From NCBI RefSeq assembly GCF_001429605.1, contig NZ_LMSS01000003.1:186001-250000 (forward strand): a stretch of DNA of 64,000 nt. The letters run 5' to 3'. The notes beneath the pieces were generated by a model. The model was not told the DNA's origin. It worked only from the letters and a program-made list of their open reading frames with translations, and searched no databases. Position numbers and translations under genes: made by a program. Positions within the stretch are counted from its first letter, which is position 1, and each line of letters begins with the position of its first letter. The DNA is from Phycicoccus sp. Soil802 (GTDB taxonomy: Bacteria > Actinomycetota > Actinomycetes > Actinomycetales > Dermatophilaceae). Shown piece after piece: positions 11,363 through 62,804 of this stretch.

Positions 11363-11439
11363 GCACTTCTGGCCACCCAGCTCGCACCTGAGGGGCCGGA
11401 TGGCCCTGCGGTGCGGCACGAGTGGCCCGAAGTCGGGTG
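11363..11439. repeat. Family B palindromic repeat, single diverged copy
   Basis: The element begins GCACTTCTGGCCAC and ends GTGGCCCGAAGTCGGG, so its ends form an imperfect inverted repeat about 75 bases apart. The same ends and length recur at 61194-61434 and 62624-62781. Here it lies between two convergent genes and may serve as a bidirectional terminator. Confidence 0.75.
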
Positions 11440-15661: not shown

Positions 15662-17206
15662 GTGGCACGCGGCGACGGACAGCTCTCGCATGATCTGCTT
15701 CCCGGCGAGAAGGGCCCGCAGGACGCCTGCGGGGTCTTCGGTGTCTGGGCCCCCGGCGAGGACGTCGCCAAGCTGACCTACTACGGCCTGTACGCCCTGC
15801 AGCACCGCGGGCAGGAGTCGGCCGGCATCGCGACCTCCGACGGTCGCTCGATCCTGGTCTACAAGGACATGGGGCTGGTGTCCCAGGTCTTCGACGAGCG
15901 CTCGCTGGCCTCGCTGCGCGGACACCTGGCCGTCGGGCACTGCCGCTACTCGACCACCGGTGGCTCCACCTGGGAGAACGCCCAGCCCACGCTCGGCGGA
16001 CATGCCGAGTCGACGGTCGCGCTGGCCCACAACGGCAACTTGATCAACTCCGCGGAGCTGCGCGACATGGTCCAGGAACGTCGTGCGGAGGGCTATGGGG
16101 CCGACGGCGGCGAGCTCGGTCGGGGCAACACCACCGACACCGCGCTGGTCACGGCACTGCTGGCCGACGACCCCGACCGTTCGCTGGAGGCAGCGGCGCT
16201 CGACCTGCTGCCCAAGCTCCGCGGCGCCTTCTGCTTCGTCTTCATGGACGAGCACACCCTGTATGCCGCCCGCGACCCCCAGGGGATCCGTCCGCTGGTG
16301 CTCGGTCGCCTCGAGCGCGGCTGGGTGGTGGCCTCCGAGACGGCCGCGCTCGACATCGTCGGCGCGTCGCTGATCCGCGAGGTCGAGCCGGGCGAGCTGA
16401 TCATCATCGACGAGGACGGCCTGCGCTCCCAGCGGTTCGCCGAGACCGACCGCAAGGGCTGCGTCTTCGAGTACGTCTACCTGGCGCGACCGGACACCAC
16501 GATCAACGGCCGTGGGGTGCACGAGTCGAGGGTCGAGATGGGTCGCACCCTGGCCCGTGAGCACCCCGTCGAGGCCGACCTCGTGATGCCGACACCCGAG
16601 TCGGGCACCCCGGCCGCGATCGGCTACGCACAGGAGTCCGGCATCCCCTACGGCCAGGGCCTGGTCAAGAACTCCTACGTGGGGCGCACCTTCATCGCCC
16701 CGTCGCAGACCATCCGCCAGCTCGGCATCCGGCTCAAGCTCAACCCGCTGCGCGAGGTCATCAAGGGCAAGCGCCTCGTCGTGGTCGACGACTCCATCGT
16801 GCGCGGCAACACCCAGCGCGCGCTGGTCAGGATGCTGCGCGAAGCCGGGGCCGCTGAGGTCCACGTGCGCATCTCGTCCCCGCCCGTGCGGTGGCCCTGC
16901 TTCTACGGCATCGACTTCGCCACCCGTGCCGAGCTGATCGCCACGGGCATCGGGGTCGAGGAGGTGTGCACGTCGATCGGCGCCGACTCCTTGGGCTACA
17001 TCTCCGAGGCGGGCATGGTCGCGGCGACCGAGCAGCCCGGCGACTCCCTGTGCACCGCGTGCTTCACCGGCACGTACCCGCTGGAGCTGCCCGACGCGAG
17101 CCGGCTGGGCAAGAACCTCTTCGAGACGCTGCCCATCGACGTCGACGTGGAGGGCGTGTCCCTCGGCGTCAGCGGCGGCGCCGAGGACGCCCTCACCCGC
17201 CCCTGA
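15662..17206 (+). CDS. purF: Amidophosphoribosyltransferase
   Basis: PurF makes 5-phosphoribosylamine from PRPP and glutamine, the first committed purine step. The 514-residue protein has a 22-residue propeptide before the nucleophile in DACGVFGVWAP (Cys23), the glutaminase residues in YSTTGGSTWENAQP, and the PRPP loop VVVDDSIVRGNTQ. Cysteines in KGCVFEY, WPCFYG and LCTACF match the four 4Fe-4S ligands of the Bacillus-type enzyme, so the oxygen-sensitive class is expected. The start is a GTG seven bases after a GAGACT box. A palindrome shared with the next gene's 3' side follows. Confidence 0.98.
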   Translation: MARGDGQLSHDLLPGEKGPQDACGVFGVWAPGEDVAKLTYYGLYALQHRGQESAGIATSDGRSILVYKDMGLVSQVFDERSLASLRGHLAVGHCRYSTTGGSTWENAQPTLGGHAESTVALAHNGNLINSAELRDMVQERRAEGYGADGGELGRGNTTDTALVTALLADDPDRSLEAAALDLLPKLRGAFCFVFMDEHTLYAARDPQGIRPLVLGRLERGWVVASETAALDIVGASLIREVEPGELIIIDEDGLRSQRFAETDRKGCVFEYVYLARPDTTINGRGVHESRVEMGRTLAREHPVEADLVMPTPESGTPAAIGYAQESGIPYGQGLVKNSYVGRTFIAPSQTIRQLGIRLKLNPLREVIKGKRLVVVDDSIVRGNTQRALVRMLREAGAAEVHVRISSPPVRWPCFYGIDFATRAELIATGIGVEEVCTSIGADSLGYISEAGMVAATEQPGDSLCTACFTGTYPLELPDASRLGKNLFETLPIDVDVEGVSLGVSGGAEDALTRP

Positions 17207-17209
17207 CGT

Positions 17210-17253
17210 CCCCTCCCCTCTTCCCCCGGTTCCCCTCCCCTCTTCCCCCGGTT
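17210..17253. repeat. Two tandem copies of a 22-bp pyrimidine-rich unit
   Basis: A 22-base unit made of CCCCTCCCCT, CTTCCCCCGG and TT is repeated exactly at 17210-17231 and 17232-17253, directly after the purF stop and touching the family A palindrome. The duplication of its terminal CCGGTT is also the start of that palindrome. Confidence 0.8.
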
Positions 17254-17299
17254 CGATGTAAAAACGCCGGTGATCTCCGGCGTGTTTACATCGAACCGG
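17248..17299. repeat. Family A palindrome, copy upstream of the DUF559-like gene
   Basis: Arms of 23 bases (17248-17270 and 17277-17299, one mismatch) surround the loop TGATCT. The arm reads CCGGTTCGATGTAAA and then AACGCCGG. The same sequence, slightly changed, lies on the other side of the gene at 18293-18336. It can act as a terminator for purF. Confidence 0.9.
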
Positions 17300-17353
17300 C
17301 GAGGGTGTGGACAAGTCGGCGGCTGGGCCGAGCGGCTTCGCCAAGATCGGGCG

Positions 17354-18292
17354 ATGAGTTGGGGAGGGCGCCGACAAGCACGGACCGACTTCGACGGACT
17401 CAGACGGTCGGCCAGGGACGGGGTGATGTCCCGGGCGGAGCTGCGGGCCCACGGCTGGGATCGCGACGCCGTCGCCCGTCAGGTCGTGGCACGGCGATGG
17501 GCACCTCATGGTCGCCAGACGATTGCCCTGCACACGTCCACCCTCGGCCCCGAGGCTCGTCGGTGGCGGGCACTCTGGGAGCTCGGTATCCGCGTCGCGG
17601 TGCTCGACGGTGTGACTGCCCTGCAGGCGGCAGGGCTGTCGGGATTCCACGATGATCGGGTCCACGTGTCCGTGCGGCACAACGCCCACGTGCCACAGGT
17701 GGACGACCTCGTCCTGCACAAGGTGGTCCGACGGATCGACGGTGAGCTCGCCGCCGGGGGGGTCCCGCGCACCACTCCCGCAGTAGCAGCGGTGCGAGCC
17801 GCCCACTGGGCTGTCAGCAACCGTCAGGCGGCGCTGGTGCTGGTGATGCCGGTGCAGCAACGACTCGTCACCGGTCACCAGCTCGTCGCGGCAGCCAAGG
17901 CTGTCCGCGGACGGACCCGCCGTGCCTTCATCCCCGCCGTGGCCAAGGACATCGCCAACGGAGCGGAGAGCCTCGGGGAGCTGGACTTTGCCGCGCTGTG
18001 CCGCGCACGTGGCCTCCCCGAACCCACCCGACAGGCGGTCCGGACGGTGGGGGCGATGCGCGCCTACCTCGACGTGTTCTGGGAGGACGTTGGGCTGGTC
18101 GTCGAGATCGACGGTTCGCAGCACCAGTGGGGAGTCGCTTCGACCGACGACCATTTCCGACAGAACGCCCTGGTGATCAGCGGCGATCGGGTCCTACGGA
18201 TGACGCTGATGGGTCTGCGCCTGGCTCCGGACCGGTTCATGGACCAGGTCTGCGCCGCGCATGCAGCGTTGGGGCACCGCAGAGCCAGCTGA
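17354..18292 (+). CDS. DUF559/AbiEi-like protein with endonuclease-fold C-terminus
   Basis: This 312-residue protein belongs to a family that is multicopy in actinobacteria and is often labelled type IV toxin-antitoxin AbiEi-like or DUF559. The N-terminus looks like a winged helix (GVMSRAELRAHGWDRDAVARQVVARRW). The C-terminus has the restriction-endonuclease-like core AYLDVFWEDVGLVVEIDGSQHQW, then DHFRQNALVISGDRVLRMT, resembling Vsr-type folds. Activity is unproven. The start at 17354 is preferred because the upstream in-frame ATG lies inside the palindrome. No partner gene is adjacent. Similar inverted repeats lie on both sides (17248-17299 and 18293-18336), as happens with the related gene at 61555. 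Confidence 0.75.
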   Translation: MSWGGRRQARTDFDGLRRSARDGVMSRAELRAHGWDRDAVARQVVARRWAPHGRQTIALHTSTLGPEARRWRALWELGIRVAVLDGVTALQAAGLSGFHDDRVHVSVRHNAHVPQVDDLVLHKVVRRIDGELAAGGVPRTTPAVAAVRAAHWAVSNRQAALVLVMPVQQRLVTGHQLVAAAKAVRGRTRRAFIPAVAKDIANGAESLGELDFAALCRARGLPEPTRQAVRTVGAMRAYLDVFWEDVGLVVEIDGSQHQWGVASTDDHFRQNALVISGDRVLRMTLMGLRLAPDRFMDQVCAAHAALGHRRAS

Positions 18293-18336
18293 TTCGATGT
18301 AAACCCGCCGGTGAATCCCGGCGGGTTTACATCGAA
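18293..18336. repeat. Family A palindrome, copy downstream of the DUF559-like gene
   Basis: Perfect 19-base arms (TTCGATGTAAACCCGCCGG at 18293-18311, complement at 18318-18336) surround the loop TGAATC. It begins next to the stop codon of the DUF559-like gene and ends 22 bases before the stop of the convergent membrane-protein gene, so it can terminate both. Confidence 0.9.
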
Positions 18337-32959: not shown

Positions 32960-33080
32960 AGGTCACGAGTTCCAGCGCACAGCCCCGGCTTGCTGGACGG
33001 CAACCCTCCCACTCGCGGCGGGGTGCTCCGGGTGAGGACCTGGCGACAGTCGCACGGCTGTCGCAAGCGCGCGGCTCTCG
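32960..33080 (+). ncRNA. SAM-IV riboswitch
   Basis: The sequence follows the SAM-IV aptamer of actinobacteria: GGTCACGAG, CCAGCG, AGCCCCGGCTTGCTGG, CGGCAACCCTCC, GCGGCGGGGTGC, CCGGGTGAGGACCTGG, then a GCGACAG/CTGTCGC hairpin (33043-33064) and CAAGCGCG. CAGGTC near 32959 pairs with GACCTG near 33038 to close the main stem. It should sense S-adenosylmethionine and lower expression of the downstream sulfonate operon when sulfur is plentiful. The mechanism (terminator or translation) is not evident. Confidence 0.92.
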
Positions 33081-54704: not shown

Positions 54705-54883
54705 GTGCTTTGGTCACAGGGGCGGGGTCCCCATCGCGGGGCCCCGCGCCTCGCGGCGGAGCCGCGCTTGAGCCAGTAAGGAAAGTCCTCACGACCCAGC
54801 TGCCGCGTCCTGTCCTGTCTCGGGTGATGCTTGACAGTCGAGTGTCAGCTGATGCTTGACGTCGGCCGGAGGCGGCGCGTGCG

Positions 54884-55264: not shown

Positions 55265-55311
55265 CAGGTTCTCCAGTCACTGAAAAGTGCGTTCTTCCAC
55301 GTCAGCGTTCA

Positions 55312-55344
55312 CTCTCTTACAGTTCCTGAGTAACTACAAGAGAG
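55312..55344. promoter_or_regulatory. Probable HxlR operator
   Basis: CTCTCTT at 55312-55318 and AAGAGAG at 55338-55344 frame an inner AGTT/AACT pair, giving an imperfect 33-bp palindrome midway between the divergent genes. Confidence 0.6.
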
Positions 55345-55406
55345 CGAGCGTCTGGGTCGACGCGGACACGAGTTCAACCAGCGCTCAGGAAGAGGAGACA
55401 GGAAGC

Positions 55407-55814
55407 ATGGCCATCACCTTTGCAAACCCCAGCGGATTGCCCGAGATCGACGTCTACCGGCAGGTGGCGATCGCATCCGGCTCGAAGTTGGTCTTCATCG
55501 CCGGGCAGGTCGCGTGGGACACCGAGGGAGTCACGATCGGCGAAGGCGACCTCGCCGCTCAGGTCGAGCAGAGCTATCTCAACATCGGCACTGCCCTGGC
55601 CGAGGCCGGCGGCTCCTTCGACGACGTGGCGAAACTGACCTTCTACGTCGTCGACTGGACCCCCGACAAGATGCCCCCGCTCCTGGAAGGGATCTCCCGG
55701 GCAGCAGCGAAGCTGGGGGTCACCCCGACCCCACCAACCACGCTGATCGGTGTTGCGGCACTCGACGCCCCTGACCATCTGGTCGAGGTCGAAGCGACCG
55801 CAGTCCTCGACTGA
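55407..55814 (+). CDS. RidA-family protein lacking the conserved arginine
   Basis: This 135-residue protein of the YjgF/YER057c/UK114 (Rid) family reads YRQVAIASGSKLVFIAGQVAWDTEG, AQVEQSYLNIGTALAEAGGSFDDVAKLTFYVVDW and DHLVEVEATAVLD. In RidA an arginine in the V-A-R-L-P region binds the imine substrate; here the segment reads GVAALDAPD, so the residue seems absent and imine deaminase activity is doubtful. AGGAG precedes the ATG. It is divergent from HxlR. Confidence 0.88.
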   Translation: MAITFANPSGLPEIDVYRQVAIASGSKLVFIAGQVAWDTEGVTIGEGDLAAQVEQSYLNIGTALAEAGGSFDDVAKLTFYVVDWTPDKMPPLLEGISRAAAKLGVTPTPPTTLIGVAALDAPDHLVEVEATAVLD

Positions 55815-55997
55815 ACAGGTGCGCTCTTCGCCCCTGAGCGCCGCAATGGCCAACTACGGCACTCAGTCATAGTCACTGACCCACGCTCCTAGCCGGGTCA
55901 AAAGTCAGGTGACACACGACTGTCAAGCATCAGCTAAGTCCAGGCGGACCATCCACCTGGGCGACGGCGACAGCCGCGTCGTGCCGCGCATCACTGA

Positions 55998-61172: not shown

Positions 61173-61193
61173 CCCCCACTCCCACCCCGCCCC

Positions 61194-61434
61194 GCACTTC
61201 TGGCCACTGGTGTCGGGTGTGGGGCGCGATCTCGGGCCGTGGTGCCGCATGGGTGGCCCGAAGTCGGGGGGCTCCTGCACGTCTGGCCACTGGTGTCGGG
61301 TGTGGGGCGCGATCTCGGGCCGTGGTGCCGCATGGGTGGCCCGAAGTCGGGGGGCTCCTGCACGTCTGGCCACTGATGCCGGGTGTGGGGCGCGATCTCG
61401 AGCCGTGGTGCCGCATGGGTGGCCCGAAGTCGCT
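61194..61434. repeat. Three tandem copies of the family B repeat (83-bp period)
   Basis: Each unit begins GCACTTCTGGCCAC (GCACGTCTGG in copies 2 and 3) and ends GGGTGGCCCGAAGTC, at about 61194, 61277 and 61360. Each unit can fold on itself through CTTCTGGCCAC/GTGGCCCGAAG. It lies upstream of the DUF559/AbiEi-like gene. Confidence 0.92.
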
Positions 61435-61554
61435 TGGGGGTAGCCACGCCAATGTGGGTGAGGCTGTCCACAGGGGTGGGCTCGCGGCATACACGATCCA
61501 CAGGCGATGGCGCACGCGTCGCCCGGTGCAGCGTGAGTGGCCACGATCTCGACC

Positions 61555-62613
61555 ATGCGAACCACGGACGCCCGTCGCTGGATCGACCTACCGCAACCAT
61601 TCCTGTGGCAGGAGGCCAGAGAAGCCGGGCTCAGTCACGCGGCACTGTCAGGTGCGGTGCGACGTCGCGAGGTGATCAAGATCGCCCCTTCGGTGTATGC
61701 CGTCCGCGAACCGTGGCTCCTGCTCGATCCGACTGAGCTTCACGTTGCCTTGGCGCGCGCAGCACAGGCCTCGATCCCCGAGTCCGTGGTGAGCCATGTC
61801 AGTGCTGCCATCGCCCTGGGTCTCCCCAAGCCGCAAGGCCCCGTGGGCAAGGTGAGTCTCACGGCGCGTGAGTCATCACGGACCAGCTATCCCGATGACT
61901 GGCGTCGGGTGCTGCAGGCCAAACTCCCCGCGGACCACGTGTCCACGGCTCACGGAGTACTGCTGACCACTCCCGCCAGGACAGTGGTGGACTCGTTCCG
62001 GCAGAGTCGCTTTCGCGATGCCCTTGCCATCGCCGATGCCGCCCTGCGGGACGGGTTGGTCCAGTCGGAGGAGCTGCGGGAGATGCGGGCATTCCAAACG
62101 CGGTGGCCTGGCATCCGGCTGGCGGAGGAGGGACTGGGCCTGGTCGATGGTCGGCGGGAGAGCTGGCTCGAGTCGGCTTCGGTGGCCGTGGCACATCGGC
62201 GCGGCTACTCGGTACCGGAGAGCCAGATCCGCATCCACGACCTGGAAGGCGCGTTCGTGGGACGCGTCGACCACCTGTGGCGAGGAGCCGGGGTGATCGG
62301 GGAGGCCGACGGCCTCGGCAAGTACCGCGGAGACCTGGCCGATGAAGAGGCCACAGCCGAGCAGATTTCAGAGGTCGTCCTGGCCGAGCGTGATCGCGAG
62401 CGTGGCCTTGAATCCTTGGGCTTTGCCGTCGCCCGGTGGGGGACCGCTGACTTGCGCGACTACGGCGAGGGGCTCTGCCGGGCGTTGAGCGCTGCGCGCC
62501 GTCGTGCTCGTCCGCAGTCGATCAGGTGTCTCTGGCGCAGCAACGACGACGAACCCCTGCAGCCGTGGAGCTGGCCTCCGGCCGAGTCGTCCGCGGCCTT
62601 CCCGGCTGCCTGA
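61555..62613 (+). CDS. AbiEi/DUF559-like protein, second copy
   Basis: This 352-residue protein is of the same broad class as the one at 17354: an N-terminal winged-helix, AbiEi-antitoxin-like region (PFLWQEAREAGLSHAALSGAVRRREVIKIAPSVYAVREPW, then ESVVSHVSAAIALGLP) and a C-terminal nuclease-fold segment (AFVGRVDHLWRGAGVIGEADGLGKYRGD, with DRERGLESLGFAVARWGTADL). Typical Vsr-like acidic and lysine residues are partly visible. No toxin partner is adjacent. An in-frame ATG six codons earlier is possible. Family B repeats flank it on both sides. Confidence 0.75.
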   Translation: MRTTDARRWIDLPQPFLWQEAREAGLSHAALSGAVRRREVIKIAPSVYAVREPWLLLDPTELHVALARAAQASIPESVVSHVSAAIALGLPKPQGPVGKVSLTARESSRTSYPDDWRRVLQAKLPADHVSTAHGVLLTTPARTVVDSFRQSRFRDALAIADAALRDGLVQSEELREMRAFQTRWPGIRLAEEGLGLVDGRRESWLESASVAVAHRRGYSVPESQIRIHDLEGAFVGRVDHLWRGAGVIGEADGLGKYRGDLADEEATAEQISEVVLAERDRERGLESLGFAVARWGTADLRDYGEGLCRALSAARRRARPQSIRCLWRSNDDEPLQPWSWPPAESSAAFPAA

Positions 62614-62623
62614 CTGACCCCCC

Positions 62624-62781
62624 GCACTTCTGGCCGATGGTGTGGCTCCGAGACCCGGAAATCCAGGGCCGGTGTCGCATGGGTGGCCGGAACTCGGGAC
62701 ACCCCCGCACTTCTGGCCGCTGGTGTGGCTCCGCGGCCCGGAAATCCAGGGCCGGTGCCGCATGGGTGGCCAGAAGTCGGG
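62624..62781. repeat. Two tandem copies of the family B repeat (83-bp period)
   Basis: Copies at 62624-62698 and 62707-62781 begin GCACTTCTGGCCG and end GGGTGGCC(A/G)GAA(G/C)TCGGG. The spacing is 83 bases, as in the array at 61194, but the middle differs (GACCCGGAAATCCAGGGCCGG). It lies between the DUF559-like gene and the convergent pstB. Confidence 0.9.
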
Positions 62782-62804
62782 ACAGGCGGGGGAGCAGGGG
62801 CGGG

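Follow-up and report, generated by a model that had tools for sequence, protein, structure and literature searches.

Relationship between an AbiEi/DUF559-like gene and the palindromes around it

In Phycicoccus sp. Soil802, a gene coding for a protein with AbiEi-like and DUF559-like features lies between two near-identical palindromes, which raises the question of what ties this gene to its repeats. The original prediction, made on the 64,000-nt stretch of DNA analyzed here (hereafter the window), compared the arrangement with REP elements and their RAYT proteins and proposed a new repeat-associated, possibly mobile, type of gene.

The gene (17354..18292, + strand) is located 3′ of purF (15662..17206, + strand; NCBIfam TIGR01134, E = 6e-158) and codes for a 312-aa protein matching AbiEi in PADLOC as well as DUF559. 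The two palindromes announced for it, with loops TGATCT and TGAATC, were found as described. Each is 44 nt long (upstream core, 17252-17295, extended form 17248-17299; downstream, 18293..18336, starting one base past the stop codon), and they are 88% identical over 48 nt. With up to one mismatch allowed, TTCGATGTAAA occurs four times in the window for 0.01 expected, every time in an arm of these palindromes. As single-stranded DNA, the two fold into hairpins of −19.6 (z −7.7) and −23.8 kcal/mol (z −9.2). They match no Rfam family, and a single terminator-like match was detected in the upstream palindrome for 0.6 expected.

The PADLOC AbiEi match covers residues 20-190 of the protein (E = 3.8e-6), and the C-terminus scores 19.8 bits with DUF559 (PF04480), just under the Pfam gathering cut-off of 20.6. 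Among 50 homologues, DUF559 was matched at E ≤ 0.01 in nine, and DUF559, AbiEi_4 and MTES_1575 were the only Pfam families found at this level; neither the window protein nor any of the 50 homologues had a Pfam match to an HUH/Y1 transposase domain. Residues E209, D211, D240, E251 and H257 do not vary across the 50 aligned homologues, a pattern that we take to be compatible with a PD-(D/E)XK-type nuclease motif. A search against profiles of solved structures returned only weak matches, all to PvuRts1I (E = 0.015), and a single-sequence structure model was too poor for use (mean pLDDT 40.8). We dropped a toxin-antitoxin interpretation since no DUF1814 toxin partner was seen at the window gene, the only locus scanned for one, where purF lies upstream and two opposite-strand ORFs without a DUF1814 match lie downstream. 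A link to phages was also abandoned for lack of support, as a peptide-pattern search of viral contigs, which detects close relatives only, gave no match and a PHROGs search gave nothing convincing.

A second, distant AbiEi-like gene of the window (61555..62613, + strand; 352 aa; PADLOC AbiEi, E = 1e-15), for which no Pfam family was matched, had been said to be bracketed by a repeat of another family. It is indeed preceded by three tandem 83-nt repeats with inverted arms (61191..61439) and followed by two (62621..62786). These repeats have CTTCTGGCCAC-type inverted arms, and a solo copy of the arms (CTTCTGGCCAC / CTTCGGGCCAC) at 11366..11432 has the same arm spacing as the copies at 61197-61263. 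The window also contains a SAM-IV riboswitch (32961-33075) and, around a gene of a different kind (RidA/L-PSP, 55287-55814), a pair of 36-nt inverted repeats (54825-54860 and 55897-55932) that are 86% complementary and 1036 nt apart.

Bracketing is general among homologues of the gene

Homologues of the window gene were found in 88 of the 119 genomes of the family. We analyzed 110 homologue loci, 30 of which were supplied by the 119-genome search and 80 fetched among the matches listed; unlisted matches, and listed ones that were partial, close to contig ends or lower down, remained outside this set. To assess bracketing, the 350 nt upstream of each gene were compared by blastn with the 350 nt downstream, and a best match of at least 37 bits was required. 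The flanks shared a repeat at 84 of the 110 loci compared to 3/201 neighbouring genes and 5/220 swapped flank pairs (Fisher P = 3e-48, relatedness ignored), and two of the three bracketed neighbour controls contain the element's own repeat. No shared flank repeat reached 37 bits at the other 26 loci. Across the 84 bracketed loci, the median distance of the repeat is 95 nt from the start codon on the upstream side and 7 nt from the stop codon on the downstream side. The clade of the 61555 gene behaves similarly, with 21 of 29 loci bracketed, the window's own gene counted (30 were fetched, one of which was left out for its short flank). Beyond the family, a phylum-wide search yielded 9 bracketed loci out of 25, some via tandem or simple repeats; it also returned two loci of the window genome, one with unrelated 58-nt brackets and the other, a short fragment, unbracketed. 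The bracketing observation is correct and general, and the expectation that homologues would be flanked by lineage-specific repeats was mostly fulfilled.

Each examined paralogue has a private repeat

Sharing of repeats was scored for pairs among the 84 bracketed loci with a threshold of 33 bits. None of the 40 pairs of paralogues from the same genome had a common repeat, including 11 pairs with 60-78% protein identity (not every copy per genome was fetched). Pairs from different genera had a common repeat in 4/5 cases at ≥70% identity and in 10/61 at 60-70%, and pairs from the same genus in different genomes in 8/16 and 1/10 cases, respectively. The window genome itself has three paralogues with three apparently unrelated repeats, a fourth relative not being included. 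The correlation between repeat similarity and parts of the protein was weak. The bracket repeat is private to each examined paralogue. Because no two examined paralogues of one genome have a common repeat, multiplication is seen for the repeats and seemingly does not extend to the gene; none of these same-genome pairs showed what would be expected of an IS200/IS605-type element, namely gene copies that share their ends.

Palindromes are dispersed in genomes that carry the gene

The 4.29-Mb window genome contains eight copies of TTCGATGTAAA-N-TTTACATCGAA, two of which bracket the gene and six of which are solo; no DUF559-like ORF was among the neighbours at three of the six solo sites. The window-type pattern TCGAKGTA-N-TACMTCGA was found in 33 of the 119 genomes in up to 82 copies, compared to none for the reversed-pattern control across all 119. 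At least one copy was present in 32/88 genomes with a homologue versus 1/31 without (32 of the 33 carriers have a homologue), and the sole palindrome-positive genome without a homologue (G033) has a single 43-nt match. Two or more copies were found in 26/88 homologue-bearing genomes versus 0/31 others (P = 2e-4, relatedness ignored). An exact copy lies beside a fetched homologue in 18 of these 26 genomes, on both sides in nine; one genome outside the fetched set (G007) raises the count to 19, and the seven others, not all of whose homologues were fetched, have no exact flanking copy.

A second, independent pattern, GTGTGTGAA-N-TTCACACAC, occurs in four of the 119 genomes (18, 33, 3 and 1 copies), all of which have a homologue. 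The matches listed include both brackets of the genome's own gene in the two genomes with 18 and 33 copies (G011 and G091); in the other two (G113 and G110), none of the matches listed is a bracket of the own gene. Another genome (G062), from the same genus as three of the four, lacks this palindrome as well as any match to the window protein at 1e-5. One hallmark of RAYT genes and REPtrons is that the palindromes on either side of the gene are found elsewhere in the genome too; our system shares it, dispersal having been tested for two palindrome types only.

Genome G045 has 81 palindromes (42-nt type, with differing stems), yet its located homologue has another bracket, and no cognate gene was found for these palindromes in this 96% complete draft. 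Comparison of 28 homologue proteins with five stretches of this genome, four of them spanning nearby palindromes, gave no match to a bracketed gene. Other brackets in G045 cannot be excluded because this check covered only places among those listed. On the contigs listed for G045 and G059, several palindromes come in nearly identical pairs whose starts are separated by 63-65 nt.

The inner stem maintains pairing and solo copies favour 3′ ends

When the spacer was left free between 20 and 34 nt, it measured 26 nt in 81 of the 82 copies of G045, whereas only 13 of the 20 copies of the looser palindrome form in the window genome have exactly this length. Covariation was examined in 23 sequences from two genomes, drawn from 28 loci, of which four truncated ones and a duplicate were dropped; the search pattern dictates the length as well as the outer 8 bp, and leaves the inner ten pairs free. 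In this set 95.7% of the cells pair, and the covariation score was 0.478 versus 0.125 for shuffled and at most 0.090 for slid sequences. The signal holds in G045 alone (10 sequences) and is weak in the window genome alone (13 sequences). The inner stem maintains its pairing via compensatory changes.

We mapped 22 solo copies with full flanks using approximate gene calls. Convergent genes surround six of them, tandem genes 13 and divergent genes one, and the last two are inside ORFs. The nearer gene end is a 3′ end in 11 of the 13 tandem sites and a 5′ end in two, and a 3′ end is nearest in 17 of all 22 copies. Neither GTAG nor CTAC, the sign of a one-sided GTAG-type tag, was found within 12 nt of any of the 22, and in most solo copies a symmetric GGT...ACC prolongs the arms. 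The sequence to the left of a palindrome is often rich in C, and that to its right rich in G (L124-L136, L178-L192).

Gene and palindromes turn over at orthologous sites

The gene and two palindromes are present at the purF site in seven of 11 congeneric genomes and both are missing in the other four, the kind of absence at orthologous sites that the original prediction had proposed to look for. Three of the seven genes are on the purF strand and four on the opposite strand. Palindromes at this site span 42 or 43 nt, and the pair is alike within a genome and unlike between genomes (e.g. TCGATGTA, TCGAGGTA, TCGGGGTA). One inverted gene copy 3′ of purF (L139, in G007) is split over two frames with both palindromes retained. 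A quick tree built from 113 proteins requires, under parsimony, at least six changes of orientation among purF-linked copies, and seven switches between purF and a different location.

Four solo sites of the window genome were compared with relatives, and 26 of 27 relative-by-site comparisons lacked a window-type palindrome; the relative G002 has one. Another TCGA-type palindrome was present in five of these 26 comparisons; three of these palindromes resemble the bracket type of that species' own gene and two do not. Unrelated inverted repeats were present in a few other comparisons. The junctions of solo sites were too diverged for the exact insertion point to be located. The proposed repeat-associated, possibly mobile, gene type stands for its repeat association, with 84/110 loci bracketed, but movement of the gene itself is unproven.

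A REPtron-like system is proposed as the best explanation

We observed bracketing, private pairing of gene and repeat, compensatory changes in the stem and lineage-specific presence or absence, along with dispersal for two palindrome types. The explanation that we favour, by a narrow measure of confidence, is that gene and palindromes make up a REPtron-like system whose nuclease-like protein is not related to RAYTs, and in which hairpin recognition, nicking and the driving of spread are all inferred. The initial comparison with REP elements and RAYTs is supported by the bracketing and the dispersed REP-like copies, action of the protein on the palindromes being unproven. The protein, AbiEi-like in its N-terminal part and DUF559/PD-(D/E)XK-like in its C-terminal part, would recognize its own hairpin, presumably through the sequence of the outer arms and the pairing of the inner stem. 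It may then bind and nick the hairpin or a cruciform and thereby drive its spread, a step for which there is no biochemistry. Two palindrome copies would bracket the gene, and the others would have spread, as non-autonomous short elements, to places that are for the most part close to the 3′ end of another gene. The palindrome type would differ by lineage and by paralogue, with gene and repeats changing together and one gene copy per type. It is an evenly balanced question for us whether systems of this sort make up a non-HUH class of palindrome spreaders that is widespread in Actinomycetota, with a hairpin family reserved to every AbiEi/PD-(D/E)XK-like paralogue, joint divergence of gene and dispersed hairpins, and several mutually exclusive systems in one genome.

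In the main rival reading, the palindromes serve as operators to which the AbiEi-like part binds, providing autoregulation and control of a small regulon at the DNA or 3′-UTR RNA level, with the nuclease-like part as an accessory. AbiEi proteins autoregulate via promoter inverted repeats (PMC7319586), the window protein has its PADLOC AbiEi match and the upstream copy lies a median of 95 nt before the start codon. However, the downstream copy lies a median of 7 nt after the stop codon, solo sites favour 3′ ends (6 convergent and 11 tandem 3′-nearer versus 2 tandem 5′-nearer and 1 divergent), the inner stem conserves pairing and not sequence, and up to 82 copies occur per genome. We consider this reading unlikely, although the counter-evidence leaves room for a role at 3′ ends at the RNA level.

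Alternatively, another enzyme could spread the palindromes, the gene riding along or preferring palindrome-rich sites. The palindromes of G045 without a detected cognate gene and the many solo copies are compatible with such a passenger, but a repeat type private to each examined paralogue and neighbouring genes that are nearly always unbracketed (3/201 bracketed) make it quite improbable. We regard as very improbable a homing-type process, in which solo palindromes in related DNA would be cut by the nuclease and the gene copied into the break by repair, so that it ends up with a palindrome on either side. The existence of bracketed genes versus solo palindromes, and the presence, absence and both orientations at purF with at least six orientation changes (parsimony, quick tree), would suit it; against this, the unoccupied purF sites have no solo palindrome in 4/4 congeners, and no same-genome paralogue pair has a common repeat despite many solo targets. 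Ordinary terminators or chance are strongly disfavoured and barely credible: solo copies do lie mostly near 3′ ends, one terminator-like match does exist (0.6 expected) and the palindromes do occur without the gene (an equally frequent occurrence without it, as ordinary terminators, was to refute the original prediction), but they do so as a dispersed REP-like family, with four TTCGATGTAAA occurrences in the window versus 0.01 expected, a reversed-pattern control at 0 in 119 genomes, bracketing at 84/110 versus 3/201 and 5/220, and an identical spacer in 81/82 G045 copies although 20-34 nt were allowed.

Comparison with known systems

The AbiE type IV toxin-antitoxin system resembles ours in the AbiEi-like N-terminal part and in the binding of inverted repeats by AbiEi (PMC7319586). 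Our system differs in having no DUF1814 partner at the window gene, a nuclease-like C-terminus and repeats that lie on both sides and are dispersed. IS200/IS605 elements likewise have a gene between palindromic ends, as PMC8266576 describes, but the window protein has no HUH transposase match and multiple gene copies with common ends were not observed. TIRtrons and TIRYTs, as described in PMC3733652, have inverted repeats of various kinds, in part dispersed, on both sides of a transposase gene; TIRYTs are tyrosine transposases, unlike the AbiEi/DUF559-like window protein. The same paper reports CGTC REPs for which no enzyme is known, and its main text gave no match for DUF559 or for six actinobacterial terms. 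In literature covered at the title and abstract level, subscription papers and preprints being outside its scope, we found no description of an association between a DUF559/AbiEi-like gene and palindromes.

The closest likeness is with REP elements and RAYTs, a mostly single-copy DNA-processing gene bracketed by dispersed, mostly intergenic, hairpin-forming palindromes, in which protein and palindrome co-evolve (PMC8266576). RAYTs are HUH tyrosine enzymes, whereas the window protein resembles AbiEi and DUF559 and has no Y1 match, and REPs have a one-sided GTAG-type tag that was not seen beside the 22 solo copies. For these two reasons, we view the system as one that works like the RAYT family without being a member of it. 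The bracketing and the dispersal suggest an undescribed repeat-spreading system, built on a protein other than the one known in other bacteria. If this is true, it offers a functional lead for a common actinobacterial gene group currently annotated as AbiEi- or DUF559-like, and a natural set of dozens of protein-hairpin pairs in which the co-evolution of recognition could be studied. REP repeats have been linked to one enzyme family, the RAYTs, in the parts of the literature covered; if an unrelated nuclease-like family has this architecture as well, that would suggest that palindrome-spreading systems arose more than once.
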